Origin: Candidatus Kuenenia stuttgartensis
GTDB lineage: Bacteria; Planctomycetota; Planctomycetia; Planctomycetales; Planctomycetaceae
Assembly (NCBI GenBank): GCA_945861865.1
Contig: CAMAWN010000031.1
Span: forward strand, 1-41,430
Length of the DNA stretch: 41,430 bases
Reading direction: 5' to 3'
Each line of letters starts with the position of its first letter. Position 1 is the first letter of the stretch. The notes beneath the pieces were generated by a model. That model worked only from the letters and a program-made list of their open reading frames with translations. It did not search any database and had not been told where the DNA came from. A program made the position numbers and the translations under genes. Below are positions 1,565-8,567 of the stretch, piece by piece.

Positions 1565-2056
1565 ATGAAGACTACCAGAAGTCGCATCACCGAAAAAGTA
1601 GTCGTCACCCACGTCACTGCGATCGCTCCGACCGCTCGTCTACTCGTCATCTCGGTCGATGCCGCGCCCGACGAAAAAGGTGACATCGAAACAGAAACAT
1701 TCACGCTGCCAGTCGTGAGCATCCGCACGACGGTCACTGATGTGTGGGCGCGTCATGAACTCGGCGACGAAATGGATGAACGAGAATACGCCGACGCCGA
1801 TGAGCTTCGCGAAGCTCGCTATCAATTCTGCCGCCAGCAGCTCGACGACGAGCTGCTCGTACGGTGCCCGGTCATGGGTGACTCGCTGATTTCGTTGGCC
1901 GACCTACGCCGCGCGTGGCGCTTCAAGTGCCAGGTCGTCACTGCGACGTGGGAGCTACGCGACGACGAACAGCGGTTCGAACCGATCGTCGAAAAGTTTG
2001 TTGGCTGTGTGAAGCAAGCGGCGCAACGGCACATCGCAAAAGGGACGGTATCGTGA
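1565..2056 (+). CDS. Hypothetical protein, 163 aa, coupled to the primase-helicase
   Basis: ATG 1565 is preceded by AAAGGA at 1547-1552, a somewhat long spacing. An in-frame ATG further upstream (1433) would overlap the previous gene, so the shorter form is preferred. The N-terminal half is beta-rich and the C-terminal half is acidic and helical (DEMDEREYADADELREARYQF). No known family is recognised. The TGA at 2054-2056 overlaps the GTG start of the primase-helicase by three bases (GTGA), so translation is coupled. A replication accessory or element-control role is a guess from position only. Confidence 0.6.
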   Translation: MKTTRSRITEKVVVTHVTAIAPTARLLVISVDAAPDEKGDIETETFTLPVVSIRTTVTDVWARHELGDEMDEREYADADELREARYQFCRQQLDDELLVRCPVMGDSLISLADLRRAWRFKCQVVTATWELRDDEQRFEPIVEKFVGCVKQAAQRHIAKGTVS

Positions 2057-4500
2057 CGCAGCACATTTCAGCCGCCGACCGCGATGAAGCTCGCCGACTC
2101 GAAATCGAGCGGGCACTCAGACTGCTGATCGAACCGGGACAAGTCGCCGAATTGCGTGCGCTCAACGTGCCGCAAAAGGGCTGGAAGCCGATCATAATGG
2201 CCGGCTACTTCGACAGCGATCACTTGAACGAGATGGCTCACGAAGCCACCCGATTGACGCTGGGCATGGCGACGGGCGTTTATGTCACGCTCAACAGCGT
2301 CAACCCCGACTTATTGGCGCGCGCAGTGAATCGCGTGAAAGTAGCGAAGCAAGACGAACTGACCAAAGACGAAAACATTCTGCGGCGGCGGTGGTTGCTG
2401 ATCGACGTTGACCCGGTGCGCGTTTCTGGCGTGTCGGCAACGGACGAGGAAAAGGCGAAGGCCCGTGACGTGTTCAACATGGTCTGGTGCCATCTTTTTG
2501 ATTGCCGTTGGCCGGATGGACTCGTTGTCGATTCGGGAAATGGTTTTCATTTGCTGTTTCGGATCGACCTGCCGGTTGGCGACGACGGTTTGGTGAAGCG
2601 GGTGCTCCAATCACTCGCAGCACAGTTCGACACTGATGAAGCCAAGGTCGATGCGTCTGTGTTCAACCCGTCGCGAATCAGCAAACTGCCGGGGACGATG
2701 GCTCGTAAAGGCGATCACGTCGCTGGTGTGCGGCCGTGGCGTTGGTCTCGCATCGAATCGGAATTGCCGCTCGAATCACCGTTGGAAGTCGTGTCGCGGG
2801 AACTGCTGGAAGCGGTCGCGGCTCAAGCGACGCCCCGCGTGTCGAACGTCCTGGCAGCCTCCAAACCCACGGCCTTGCTTCCGAGTTCACCAGCCGACCG
2901 ACTCAGCATCCCGGAGCGTGCTCGCAGGTATTTGACGACGCTTCCGCCTGCCGTCTCCGGTCAAGGCGGCAGCAACGTGACATTCCATGCGGCTTGCGTG
3001 CTCGTGAAGGGATTCGCGTTGTCGGTTGACGCTGCTCTGCCACTGCTTGCTGAGTGGAACGCGACCTGTCAGCCACCGTGGACCGAGCAAGAGTTGCTGC
3101 ACAAGCTCAACGACGCCGTGAAAGCTCCCGGCGAAGTTGGCAACTTGCTGCGGGCGTCGGCACAGTCACCGACTGGATCACCTGTCGCCGTCACGTCACC
3201 AATCGGTCAGCGTTCCGCTCTGATCCTGCCCACTGGTACGCTCGTTCGTTGCGGCGATCGCGGCAACATCGGTGATGTCGTTCAAGACGATGGCGGCAAC
3301 ACCGTCAGAATTCATTTCTGCTCGCCTGACGGCGTGGAAGCGATCAAGGACATTCCCCGCCGCGAGGTGTCACAAGCGGACGGAACGCCGCTTGTGCCGA
3401 CCGGCTTCACGTTGAACTTGATCACGTCGCGTGAGTTTGCCACCGCCGATTACCGGAAACGCTTCCTGATTCGTCATGTCCTCACCGAAGGTCAACCCTG
3501 CATCGTGGGCGGACCTCGCAAGGGCATGAAGACCGGAACGATGATTGAACTGGCCGTGAGTCTCGGATCGGCGACGCCGTTTCTCGGACGGGAAGAATTC
3601 GCGGTCAAAGATGCCGTCAACGTAGCGATCTTCAGTGGAGAAAGCGGCCTAGCGACGCTTCAAGAGACTGCGCGGCGAGTCGCGTTTGCGCACAGTGTTG
3701 AATTAGCCGACTGCCGAATCTGGTGGGAAACGCGACTGCCGAAAATCGCGAACCCCGAACATCTCGAAGCCTTGCGAGCGGTCATTCGGAAGCACGAAAT
3801 TCGAGTCGCCATCCTGGACCCGGCGTATTTGTGTTTGCTCTCCGGTGACACTCAAGGCCGGCAAGCGAGCAACGTGTTTGATATGGGCAGCATCCTGCAA
3901 GGACTCGCCGACGTGGGGCAGGACATCGGTTGCGGAATCATCCTCGCGCATCACACTCGCAAGAATCTGACCGAGCGATTTGCAGTCCCCGACTTGGATG
4001 AGTTGGCGTTCGCCGGATTCGGTGAGTTCGCTCGCCAATGGATTCTGCTCAACCGCCGCAAAGAGTACGAACCGGGCCAGCACGAGCTTTGGCTGTCTAT
4101 CGGTGGCAGCGCCGGGCATTCGTCGTGTTGGTCGCTGACAATCGAAGAGGGTATCCCGGATGAAGAGTTTCGCGGCCGATTCTGGAGAACCACCGTGCGA
4201 CCGGCTACCGAAGCCATCCAGCAAGCTCGTGATGACCGCGAACATCAAAAGGAAAACGACCGTCACTCGCGGATGCTGAGCGACCTGGAACGGATCGCGG
4301 ATTTGCTACGGAAGGCAACCGAACCGATGACCCAAAACGAAATCAAAACTCGTCTGGGTCTGAACGACACAAATTTCAAGCCTGCATTCGCGGAAGCGCT
4401 CAACCGCGACCTCTTGACGACAACAACCAAGAAATCGGGTAACGGTCGTAAGTATGACGCCTTCAAATTTCGGCACTCAGACACTCAGACGTCTGTGTGA
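2053..4500 (+). CDS. Primase-helicase replication protein (AEP primase plus RepA/AAA_25 ATPase)
   Basis: The 815-residue protein begins at GTG 2053, overlapping the upstream stop. The N-terminal part has the three signature sites of archaeo-eukaryotic-type primases: the LLIDVDP acid pair D118 and D120, SGNGFHLLF with H166, and a third aspartate D200 in KVDASVFNPSRISKLPGT. After a linker, a RecA-fold ATPase of the RepA/AAA_25 group follows. Its phosphate loop is GPRKGMKT (487-494), with Met where a glycine is usual, the Walker B region is VAILDP (D589), and AHHTRK follows. The last 80 residues look like a winged helix. It should prime and unwind DNA for the element's own replication. The repeat and hairpin region starting at its 3' end is a natural origin candidate. 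Confidence 0.85.
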   Translation: MTQHISAADRDEARRLEIERALRLLIEPGQVAELRALNVPQKGWKPIIMAGYFDSDHLNEMAHEATRLTLGMATGVYVTLNSVNPDLLARAVNRVKVAKQDELTKDENILRRRWLLIDVDPVRVSGVSATDEEKAKARDVFNMVWCHLFDCRWPDGLVVDSGNGFHLLFRIDLPVGDDGLVKRVLQSLAAQFDTDEAKVDASVFNPSRISKLPGTMARKGDHVAGVRPWRWSRIESELPLESPLEVVSRELLEAVAAQATPRVSNVLAASKPTALLPSSPADRLSIPERARRYLTTLPPAVSGQGGSNVTFHAACVLVKGFALSVDAALPLLAEWNATCQPPWTEQELLHKLNDAVKAPGEVGNLLRASAQSPTGSPVAVTSPIGQRSALILPTGTLVRCGDRGNIGDVVQDDGGNTVRIHFCSPDGVEAIKDIPRREVSQADGTPLVPTGFTLNLITSREFATADYRKRFLIRHVLTEGQPCIVGGPRKGMKTGTMIELAVSLGSATPFLGREEFAVKDAVNVAIFSGESGLATLQETARRVAFAHSVELADCRIWWETRLPKIANPEHLEALRAVIRKHEIRVAILDPAYLCLLSGDTQGRQASNVFDMGSILQGLADVGQDIGCGIILAHHTRKNLTERFAVPDLDELAFAGFGEFARQWILLNRRKEYEPGQHELWLSIGGSAGHSSCWSLTIEEGIPDEEFRGRFWRTTVRPATEAIQQARDDREHQKENDRHSRMLSDLERIADLLRKATEPMTQNEIKTRLGLNDTNFKPAFAEALNRDLLTTTTKKSGNGRKYDAFKFRHSDTQTSV

Positions 4501-5404: not shown

Positions 5405-6232
5405 ATGACGAAAAACTCACTCCGCATGACCGACACGCCAAGTGTTACATATAGATTGACGAACCACAAGGCTTACGTAACAATGGTTGCACGCCAGTTG
5501 AATCGGCTCGTGAATGATTACTTCGGAGAATCCGCCGTGCAAAAAATCATCGCGTACTATCGAGTCTCGACCGCCAAGCAGGGGCGGAGTGGACTCGGCC
5601 TGGAAGGACAGGAAGCGGCCGTGTCGGCATTCGTCCAAACACGGGGCTGCGACGTACTGGCAACGTATCAAGAAATCGAATTGGGCAAGCGGGCGGACCG
5701 TCCACAACTGGCCAAGGCTCTCGCCCATGCCAAGCGATCCAAGGCAGTTTTAGTTGTCGCGAAACTCGACCGCTCGGCTCGCAACGTGGCGTTCCTGTCC
5801 CGGCTGATGGAATCCGGTGCGGACTTCATCGCGATTGATCTGGAGCACGCGAACCTGACGATCCACATTCTATCGGCCGTGGCGAAAGGCGAAGCGAAGG
5901 CGACCAGCGATCGAACAAAGGTTGCATTGCGTGCGGCAAAGGCTCGTGGGATGAAGCTGGGATCGGCCCGCCCTGGACACTGGGACGGGCGCGAACAGGC
6001 TCGTCTACGTGGAGCGGCCAAGGGAGCGAAAGTTTCGGCGGCAGTTCGCGCGAAGGCGGCAACCGAGGCTTACGTTGACCTCATTCCGCAGATGAAGCAA
6101 CTACGGAGCGAAGGTCGTAGTCTGCGAGCGATTGCGGAATCGCTGAACGCTGCTGGCCACACGACCCGTCGTGGCAAGTCGTGGAACCAAGTTCAAGTTA
6201 GCCGCGTGCTCCAACGGCTCGCGATCGTGTGA
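5405..6232 (+). CDS. Serine recombinase (resolvase/invertase family)
   Basis: The catalytic domain begins with IIAYYRVSTAKQG, in which S55 is the nucleophile. LDRSARN and the helix leading to SDRTKVALRAAKARGMKLG complete the fold. A C-terminal HTH (SLRAIAESLNAAGHTTRRGKSW) binds DNA. Length fits the small resolvase class, not the large serine integrases. Two starts are plausible: ATG 5405 with AAGGA at 5391, or GTG 5537 with GGAGA at 5525. The second removes a 44-residue leader with no resemblance to the family and may be the true start. The stop overlaps a GTG belonging to the integrase frame. It may resolve or invert element DNA. Confidence 0.88.
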   Translation: MTKNSLRMTDTPSVTYRLTNHKAYVTMVARQLNRLVNDYFGESAVQKIIAYYRVSTAKQGRSGLGLEGQEAAVSAFVQTRGCDVLATYQEIELGKRADRPQLAKALAHAKRSKAVLVVAKLDRSARNVAFLSRLMESGADFIAIDLEHANLTIHILSAVAKGEAKATSDRTKVALRAAKARGMKLGSARPGHWDGREQARLRGAAKGAKVSAAVRAKAATEAYVDLIPQMKQLRSEGRSLRAIAESLNAAGHTTRRGKSWNQVQVSRVLQRLAIV

Positions 6233-6282
6233 ATCAAACAGCAACACAAATTCTTTCAACGCTCTGGCGCAAGGAACGCTCA

Positions 6283-7629
6283 ATGGCATCCATCTCGACC
6301 GACTCCAACGGCAATCGCACGATTCAATTCGTGGGTGCCGATTGCAAGCGTCGCAGCGTTCGGCTTGGCAAAGTACCGATGCGAGTCGCAGAGTCGGTCA
6401 AAGTCAGGGTCGAGGCTCTGGACATCGCGAATATCAGCGGCCTTCCCGTTGATTGCGACACTGCTCGCTGGGTTTCAGAACGTGACGTGATGCTGTTGGA
6501 GAAACTCGCGTCCGTGAAACTCATCCAACCGCGTGAGCCGGTCAAACAAATCAAACTGGGTGCCTTTCTGGACGATTACTTGGAACGCCGCTCAGACGTG
6601 AAAGACGGAACCCAAGTCTTCTACGGGCACACGAAACGGAATCTGATCGACGTGTTTGGTGCGGATCGTCCGATCGACAGCATCACAGCCGGGGACGCAG
6701 ACGAATTTCGCCGACAACTTTTGAAGGAACGGCAGTCGCAAAATCTCGACGGGACGAGTCGAAAAACGAAACCCCTCTCGGCGGCAACGGTGGCTCGCCG
6801 TTGCAGTCTTGCCCGGACATTTTTCCGCGATGCCGTGCGGCGGAAGTTGATCGACGCGAATCCATTTCAGGACATCGGAGCCGGCAACAAAGCAAACCCC
6901 GACCGGCAACGCTTCATTGACCAAGTCTCGATCGCGAAAGTCATCGACGCCTGCCCCAACGCCGAATGGCGGTTGTTGGTCGCGTTGTCGCGGTTTGGTG
7001 GCGTGCGAATCCCGTCCGAGGCTCTCACGCTGCATTGGAGCGACATCGACTGGACCGGCAACAAGATGACGATTCACTCGCCGAAGACTGAACATCACGC
7101 CGGCAAGGCCACGCGGATTGTGCCAATCTTCGGCGAGTTGCGGCCGTACCTCGATGAAGTCTTTCAACAAGCGACCGGCAGTTTCGAGCGTCCAGTTGAT
7201 CCCGATGCTTTTGTTCTTGCCGACCTGCAACACGAAGCCGGTCACCGCGGTGACTGGCGAGCCGTCAACGTACGAACTCGATTTCAGAAAATCGTCAAGC
7301 GTGCTGGCCTGACTCCGTGGCCGCGACTGTGGCACAACCTGCGAAGTTCTCGTCAGACGGAACTGACGGAGCAATTCCCGTCTCACGTTGTCAGTGCGTG
7401 GCTCGGCAACAGCGAGCGTGTCGCCGAGCAGCACTACCTGCAACTGCTCGACTCACACTTTGAAAAGGCATCACAACCGGCGGTGCGGAATCCGGTGCAG
7501 TCAGCGTCCGCACTGCACCGCATTGCACCGCATGGCGTCACCACGAATGCAAAAACCCTCGGAAATCCGAGGGTTCTTGCAAAATCAATGGGCGATACTG
7601 GATTCGAACCAGTGACTTCCACCGTGTGA
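6283..7629 (+). CDS. Tyrosine recombinase / tRNA-targeting integrase
   Basis: I start the 448-residue protein at ATG 6283 with AAGGA at 6271-6275. The N-terminus (MASISTDSNGNRTIQFVG) is a form seen repeatedly in planctomycete integrases, while the upstream in-frame GTG 6229 would add an unrelated leader. The catalytic residues are R242 (FGGVRIPSE), the H351-N-L-R354 box and Y385 (VAEQHYLQ). A SAM-like arm domain precedes them. The C-terminus reads through the tRNA-Val terminator (residues NPRVL) and into the tRNA (DTGFEPVTSTV), stopping at TGA 7627-7629. It integrates and excises the element at the tRNA. Confidence 0.93.
   Translation: MASISTDSNGNRTIQFVGADCKRRSVRLGKVPMRVAESVKVRVEALDIANISGLPVDCDTARWVSERDVMLLEKLASVKLIQPREPVKQIKLGAFLDDYLERRSDVKDGTQVFYGHTKRNLIDVFGADRPIDSITAGDADEFRRQLLKERQSQNLDGTSRKTKPLSAATVARRCSLARTFFRDAVRRKLIDANPFQDIGAGNKANPDRQRFIDQVSIAKVIDACPNAEWRLLVALSRFGGVRIPSEALTLHWSDIDWTGNKMTIHSPKTEHHAGKATRIVPIFGELRPYLDEVFQQATGSFERPVDPDAFVLADLQHEAGHRGDWRAVNVRTRFQKIVKRAGLTPWPRLWHNLRSSRQTELTEQFPSHVVSAWLGNSERVAEQHYLQLLDSHFEKASQPAVRNPVQSASALHRIAPHGVTTNAKTLGNPRVLAKSMGDTGFEPVTSTV
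7551..7575 (-). terminator. Intrinsic terminator of tRNA-Val, inside the integrase gene
   Basis: AACCCTCGG at 7554-7562 pairs with CCGAGGGTT at 7567-7575 around a 4-base loop. On the minus strand the second arm runs into a stretch of five T residues, giving a standard terminator 14 bases past the tRNA 3' end. The same bases are sense codons of the integrase on the plus strand. Confidence 0.8.
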
Positions 7630-7661
7630 GGATGGCACTCTAGCCGCTGAGTTAATCGCCC
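7589..7661 (-). tRNA. tRNA-Val (anticodon CAC)
   Basis: On the minus strand the acceptor stem GGGCGAT...ATCGCCC closes a complete cloverleaf. It has a D arm ACTC...GAGT, an anticodon arm CCATC/GGTGG with loop CTCACAC (anticodon CAC, reading GUG), a five-base variable loop and a T arm ACTGG-TTCGAAT-CCAGT. The base at 7589 supplies a discriminator A, and CCA is not encoded. The gene is intact although an element is integrated at its 3' side, because the element brings its own copy of the 3' part. Confidence 0.95.
7590..7630. other. Integrase-side attachment site within tRNA-Val (inferred)
   Basis: The integrase ends within the tRNA, so the recombination core must lie in the 3' half of tRNA-Val, somewhere between the anticodon loop and the acceptor end. 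The exact core cannot be set without the second copy, which was not found to the left in this window. Confidence 0.5.
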
Positions 7662-7787
7662 AAGTTCATCGGGACTTCTCGCCGATGAAGAGCGTCATCG
7701 GCACGACGGCCTTGGGTTCTTCACAACGAGGCGGCGTTGTACTGTCTAGCAGTTGGGGTCGCAAGTTTCTGAAAGCGGATCACGCAC

Positions 7788-8567
7788 ATGACCGAATCGA
7801 TCGCACAACCTGGACGAGTCGTCGCGGTCATGCCGGCTTTCAACGCGGCCGCCACGCTCGAAAAAACCATTGCCGACATTCCGGCCGGATCGGTTCACGA
7901 AATCATCCTGGTCGATGATTGCAGTCGCGACAACACGGTGGAGATCGCTCGTCGACTGGGTCTGACCGTCATTGCTCATGAAAAGAACACGGGCTACGGG
8001 GGGAATCAGAAGACGTGCTATCGGCAGGCTCTGGAACGTGGGGCCGAATTCGTTGTCATGATCCATCCGGACTACCAGTACGACAGCCGAGTGATTCCGG
8101 TCGCGGTTGAGATTTTGAAGTTGGGCATCTGCGACGTGATGCTCGGCTCACGCATTCGCACGCGACGCGAAGCGCTCGACGGCGGAATGCCGAAGTGGAA
8201 GTACGTCGCGAATCGCGGGCTGACGATTTGCGAGAACATCGCGCTGGGCCAAAACCTCGGCGACTTTCATAGCGGATTTCGAGCGTATCGCCGCGAGGTG
8301 CTGGAAACGATCCCCTTCGAGCGGAACTCGAATGATTTCGTGTTCGACAGCCAGTTTTTGGCGCAGGCGGTTCATTTCGGATTCAAGCTGGGAGACATCC
8401 CTGTCCCAGTGCGCTACTTCGAGGAAGCCTCCAGCATCAACTTCGGTCGCAGCGTGACGTACGGCATGCGGACGCTCGGAGTGCTGGCTCAGTTCTGGCT
8501 GCATCGCCTCCGCGTTTGTCGCAGCTCGCTTTTTCAAAAGCGCGAGTCACCAACTCCGGCCGGATAA
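7788..8567 (+). CDS. Glycosyltransferase family 2 (DPM1/DPG-synthase-like)
   Basis: This is a soluble 259-residue GT-A enzyme. It has the nucleotide-sugar fold start [18 protein letters not shown], the first acidic site [11 protein letters not shown] (around residues 40-50), the metal-binding region MIHPDYQYD, and the acceptor segment [15 protein letters not shown], which is typical of dolichol-phosphate-mannose synthase-like proteins. No membrane segments are seen, so it would act at the inner face of the membrane on a lipid carrier or on cell-surface glycans. It is the first chromosomal gene after the tRNA and has no obvious partner here. The sugar is not predictable. Confidence 0.85.

Follow-up and report, generated by a model that had tools for sequence, protein, structure and literature searches.

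A planctomycete integrase gene that very probably spans its own attachment site and would exchange its C-terminal tail for a tRNA-coded stub upon integration

Our analysis suggests that, in a family of planctomycete elements and phages, the integrase gene (int) very probably spans the whole attachment site; integration would swap the tail of the integrase (Int) for a tRNA-coded stub and stop codon, and excision would restore it. With attP inside int, 48-76 residues would be exchanged for, in most cases, 4-17 host-coded ones. In the free form, circular or phage, a single open reading frame (ORF) would encode the catalytic enzyme, a disordered stretch and a folded two-helix tail, and the DNA of the disordered stretch would hold the P arm, the tRNA terminator, the core from the tRNA 3' end and the P' arm. 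On insertion into the 3' portion of a tRNA gene, the int ORF would be severed within the core. The gene at the tRNA would keep the catalytic part and take its stub and stop from the host tRNA. The tail would be stranded at the far end of the element behind a displaced tRNA fragment, still in phase, and excision would bring the long form back.

The case from which we started lies in the window, that is, the whole stretch of 41,430 nt that was analysed (Table 1). Its integrase scores 38.6 bits against PF00589, above the curated cut-off of 27.1, and is thus a tyrosine recombinase / phage integrase; the match covers residues 231-408 of 466 and is whole in the integrated gene. The ORF overlaps the antisense strand of tRNA-Val(CAC) by 42 nt, the last 14 Int codons including the stop. 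An earlier note on this DNA had claimed that the Int tail is coded by the tRNA-Val terminator and the antisense of the tRNA, and this proved accurate to the base. The sequence also confirms that the TGA at 7627-7629 is the reverse complement of U33, C34 and A35, and the GTG before it that of positions 36-38 (anticodon arm, sense strand: CCATC-CTCACAC-GGTGG). The stop on the anticodon is an outcome of the frame and the tRNA identity and is not special, unlike the open frame up to the tRNA. We call the hairpin beside the tRNA gene terminator-like because of its fold and position; it is absent from the strict terminator pattern scan. Two unlike recombinases, the serine and the tyrosine one, adjoin in the window.

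Table 1. Features of the window around the integrase gene and its target tRNA gene
Feature	Position	Strand	Basis or remark
AAA_25 ATPase, presumably a gene of the element (placement inferred)	1915..4500	+	PF13481 1.2e-13
Serine recombinase gene, 4-base overlap with int start	5405..6232	+	PF00239 1.3e-22
Tyrosine integrase gene (Int), integrated form	6229..7629	+	466 aa; PF00589 E 1.2e-9 and PF13102; relatives found
Candidate P-arm site GCGGTGCGGAATCCGGTGCAG, inside Int linker	7480..7500	+	22 bases 7480-7501 identical (100%) at C59:980-1001
Terminator-like hairpin of the tRNA gene, also Int codons	7548..7581	-	15 bp; -26.5 kcal/mol, z -6.6
tRNA-Val(CAC), target gene	7588..7662	-	ARAGORN
Probable common core (tRNA 3' end to T loop), read MGDTGF	7588..7607	+	20 bases common with C59; 19-nt repeat in L114
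Probably host-supplied stub and stop, read (E)PVTSTV*	7608..7629	+	Deduced from where the L114 repeat block ends

The overlap is no curiosity of one window, and it is beyond chance that the Int frame stays open as far as the tRNA. The same genome (G000, a 6.24-Mb draft) has 32 PF00589 hits, at many different tRNAs; 10 of them have their stop within an antisense tRNA and 3 continue across one. Among relatives in named genomes, where the best 80 of at least 552 matches were kept, 66 of the 80 end within a tRNA, 3 read across one, 3 stop short of one, 2 run off the contig and 6 are without a tRNA according to the script. On inspection, one of the latter (L123) stops in tRNA-Val, and another (L112) ends in VGDTGFEPVTSTV; L125, counted as stopping before the tRNA, is an integrase broken in two, the second part of which stops in the tRNA. 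Between the catalytic Tyr and the tRNA (median distance 175 nt), the Int frame is open throughout at 72 of the 75 loci that have a tRNA, versus 13 and 10 for the other frames; 72 of these loci are genomic and 3 viral.

The strongest pointer to an attachment site inside int comes from elements of which both ends could be paired. We sought the displaced tRNA 3' piece, without requiring a tail, upstream of 74 integrases whose stop lies in a tRNA or just past it (72 from L112-L247, plus L102 and L105). Of these relatives, 13 show the hallmark of a tRNA-targeting element, an integrase at a tRNA and a displaced 3' fragment at the opposite end, with the piece 5.1-14.0 kb away; the other 61 have no displaced piece on the fetched stretch. 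In all 13, the frame in phase with Int stays open for 48-76 codons past the repeat. At least 48 open codons are thus seen in 13/13 Int-phase frames versus 4/26 other frames (p 2.9e-7, a rough value, as frames of one stretch are not independent), and in 11/11 versus 3/22 if L102 and L105, first found through their tails, are left out (p 1.9e-6, rough for the same reason). The conserved tail is recognized by profile in 11 of the 13 and by eye in L117; the free tail of L179 is without the motif. In the integrated gene, 4-17 host-coded codons follow the repeat in 11 of the 13, 31 in L105 and 73 in L179, and the integrated C-terminus is shorter than the free one in 12 and longer in L179. L111 is an additional pair in phase, but with stop codons between core and tail. 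For the family, these continued frames support the earlier suggestion that the tail or stop may be altered by excision; the crossover would lie in the core.

Within the linker, a direct repeat flanks the repeat block in 12 of the 13 paired elements, with one copy 77-156 nt before and the other 39-61 nt after; L151 alone has no arm repeat. The copies match in 17-20 of 20 bases and shuffled sequences in at most 16, and four elements only reach 17. The positions are coordinates from the direct-repeat search, a first expression for the arm motif having matched nothing, and the register can vary because the arm repeats are themselves double. Since the reading frame differs between the two copies in 9 of the 12 elements, they look conserved as DNA, like putative arm-type Int sites. 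These DNA sites fall within the disordered stretch of the protein.

In our collection of 67 distinct tails, gathered by profile and including a few that are perhaps unrelated, the consensus is SGAvdadsaadDprLarlieaWPtLpedvRaaIlalvg. In 18 overlapping pairs with 70-98.5% identity, differences fall on the three codon positions as 119/105/192, and single-base codon changes are 105 silent versus 105 replacing. Without selection, about one in four single-base changes is expected to be silent. The substitution pattern thus indicates that the tail is under selection as protein. An earlier proposal had been to look for a conserved C-terminal tail in relatives; this holds for the tail of the free form, and the tRNA-coded stub just follows the tRNA. 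The idea of selection on the stub itself was dropped for that reason. In a model of the natural long integrase L195 (58 aligned sequences, mean pLDDT 82.5), the enzyme part is confident, residues 415-489 are of low confidence or disordered, and helices 487-502 and 505-520 form a predicted helical hairpin, with block pLDDT of 84-94 over residues 491 to 520. The closest solved folds to L195 are Tn1549 Int, XerA and lambda Int. Pfam assigns no family to two orphan tails, NCBIfam none to the orphan tail of L114, and five integrases gave nothing above an NCBIfam cut-off. A degradation tag at the free tail was considered but not seen: by eye, no -AA end occurs among the 13 free tails.

As for its spread, a search of the window's own genome with the tail from contig C59 gave 11 places at E up to 1, 9 of which come after a displaced tRNA 3' piece (by eye). 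A profile of ten tails has matches in 40 of 61 family genomes at E up to 0.001, a number that may overstate the system because weak matches include the end of L067 (G034:C130:20022-20105). There, the tail motif lies at the C-terminus of another ORF, which we take to be ion-channel-like, and no tRNA piece was seen beside it.

Loss of the tail may change the activity, direction or stability of Int and so act as an integration-state switch, a step to which we give a little less than an even chance. The whole scheme, a widespread bacterial switch in which a recombination event edits the recombinase, we put forward tentatively. The long Int of a free phage would integrate and thereby destroy its own long form; a new C-terminus with its stop would be written by the host tRNA, and until excision restores the tail the short Int would differ in direction, stability or partner binding. 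Rather unlikely, in our judgement, is the alternative that the overlap is passive, so that int spans attP and changes when the element integrates, but merely continues into any sequence beyond the site, with a tail that does nothing. Such a passive overlap would fit a stub set by tRNA identity and a linker whose DNA is constrained as arm sites and terminator, as well as the L179 free tail without the motif and three loci (C49, L180, L215) where integrase and tail lie side by side but out of frame; these three loci also count against the main reading. However, the same hairpin tail occurs in two integrase clades that have different arm repeats, and this conserved, folded tail makes it likelier that both forms are made and that the swap matters. 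The protein-like substitution pattern, the confident fold and the open frame in 13/13 elements also argue against a tail without a role.

Natural genes running from integrase to tail bear on the remaining alternatives. The 56 viral loci include continuous ORFs, with no tRNA on the stretch, in L195, L196 (=L197), L201 (=L202), L204 and L210; the continuous ORF of L240 is weak, and L210 and L240 were judged by eye. In the second integrase clade (alignment A4, 34 viral loci), the ORF is continuous in L287 and L300. L204 carries terminase, portal and major head genes, and L287 and L300 each carry a terminase gene. These viral contigs agree with the earlier view that integration state could alter the protein, and both proteins would presumably be produced. 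For L195 and L210, 19/20 bases of the core agree with a tRNA 3' end. The core of L201 reaches 16, equalled by one of its shuffles, and those of L196, L204 and L240 reach 15, within one of their shuffles; these four are not distinct from shuffled controls. Of the 56 viral loci, 46 have no tRNA within 900 nt and no tail by the profile then used; many of them, as seen in the part inspected, are distant relatives ending soon after the catalytic domain. INPHARED phages searched with L195 gave nine records, none covering 80%. Chromosomal continuous cases are C24, L080 and L174, the core of the last matching a tRNA 3' end in 19/20 bases. A chimeric ORF, L107 (406-1476, minus strand), joins the C-terminal half of an integrase, core and tail to a foreign start, presumably HD-domain-like.

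We regard it as improbable that the tail is a separate small protein, e.g. a directionality factor, with its own start at the far end and a secondary continuity with int. The orphan tail frames do contain possible start codons, some of them at the core, but the tail is continuous with int in the viral contigs and the Int phase is kept in 13/13 elements. About as improbable is that, instead of the free form, the continuous ORFs represent junctions of tandem insertions or remnants in decay. L174 does resemble a tandem junction, C49 has both parts contiguous with a frameshift and L080 begins with a foreign piece; but the long ORFs are found in viral contigs that have packaging genes and, on the stretch, no tRNA, and a tandem junction would also have the attP sequence, so the gene-structure argument survives.

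As to the far end of the window's own element, the window holds no second copy of the core. L114 is an element at the same tRNA, tRNA-Val(CAC), and if the core ends as it does there, probably only about MGDTGF of the end of the window's Int is element DNA and the remainder up to the stop is host DNA. DNA searches of the window's own genome led to C93 (another tRNA-Val integrase), C59 and C289. In both C59 and C289, a displaced tRNA-Val fragment lies within a frame that continues into a tail, which reads ...DDPRLLALIDAWLTLPEDARDAIARLAGQL in C59. C59 is a candidate for the far end of the window's element, but it may be a former tandem junction, because its left side resembles an older integrase linker (by eye). 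C59 stayed a candidate after genus-level searches for the window's far end, and a plasmid collection searched with the window's Int gave no match.

Three known systems come closest to these elements. With the lambda-type phages and islands that target tRNAs, they share the integrase fold, the core at the tRNA 3' end, the arm repeats and the displaced tRNA fragment. In the lambda type, attP is usually located beyond the reading frame of int, and the protein is unchanged by integration. In the archaeal suicidal (SSV-type) integrases, such as those of SSV1, pTN3 and pT26-2, attP lies in the int gene, which is split upon integration at a tRNA, as described in a 2021 review (PMC8371274). Judging from the paired ends and the natural long genes of relatives, the planctomycete attP likewise appears to lie inside the integrase's own gene. 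However, SSV-type integration parts the catalytic domain from the rest and inactivates the gene, whereas in the planctomycete elements and phages catalysis would remain whole and only the C-terminal tail be exchanged; the former system is archaeal, the latter bacterial and phage-borne. PF16795 (Phage_integr_3), which the same text names for SSV-type integrase families (PMC8371274), is not among the Pfam matches of the window's Int at E up to 0.001. In mycobacteriophage BPs, attP lies inside an ORF, the prophage repressor has 103 residues versus 136 in the viral form, with a shorter C-terminus, and the long form carries an ssrA-like tag (PMC4557955). As in BPs, integration would shorten the C-terminus of the product (12/13 planctomycete elements); in contrast to BPs, the product is an integrase and not a repressor, and the free tails do not share the -AA end.

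The principle is therefore known, and in the literature searched, mostly outside subscription journals, we found no description of a bacterial integrase that swaps its own tail for a tRNA-coded one, so that part appears to be new. It would contrast with the review's statement that self-disrupting integrases are exclusively archaeal (PMC8371274). Through such an exchange, the cell would hold a record of integration state at the level of protein and have a simple means of controlling direction. In addition, the exchange would explain protein ends such as GDTGFEPVTSTV as those of integrated integrases, and the stranded tail could serve as a marker of element ends in draft genomes. The element of L117 (4777-11314) is small (6.5 kb) and carries patatin-like and DNA polymerase A-like genes, and the 5.7-kb element of L121 has a D5_N protein aboard. 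L110 has a tail with a tRNA-Val piece (137-523) and, 8 kb apart, an intact tRNA-Val(TAC) (8102-8176); between them lie repeat-rich ORFs and no integrase was found there, and L110 is possibly an element that lost int.
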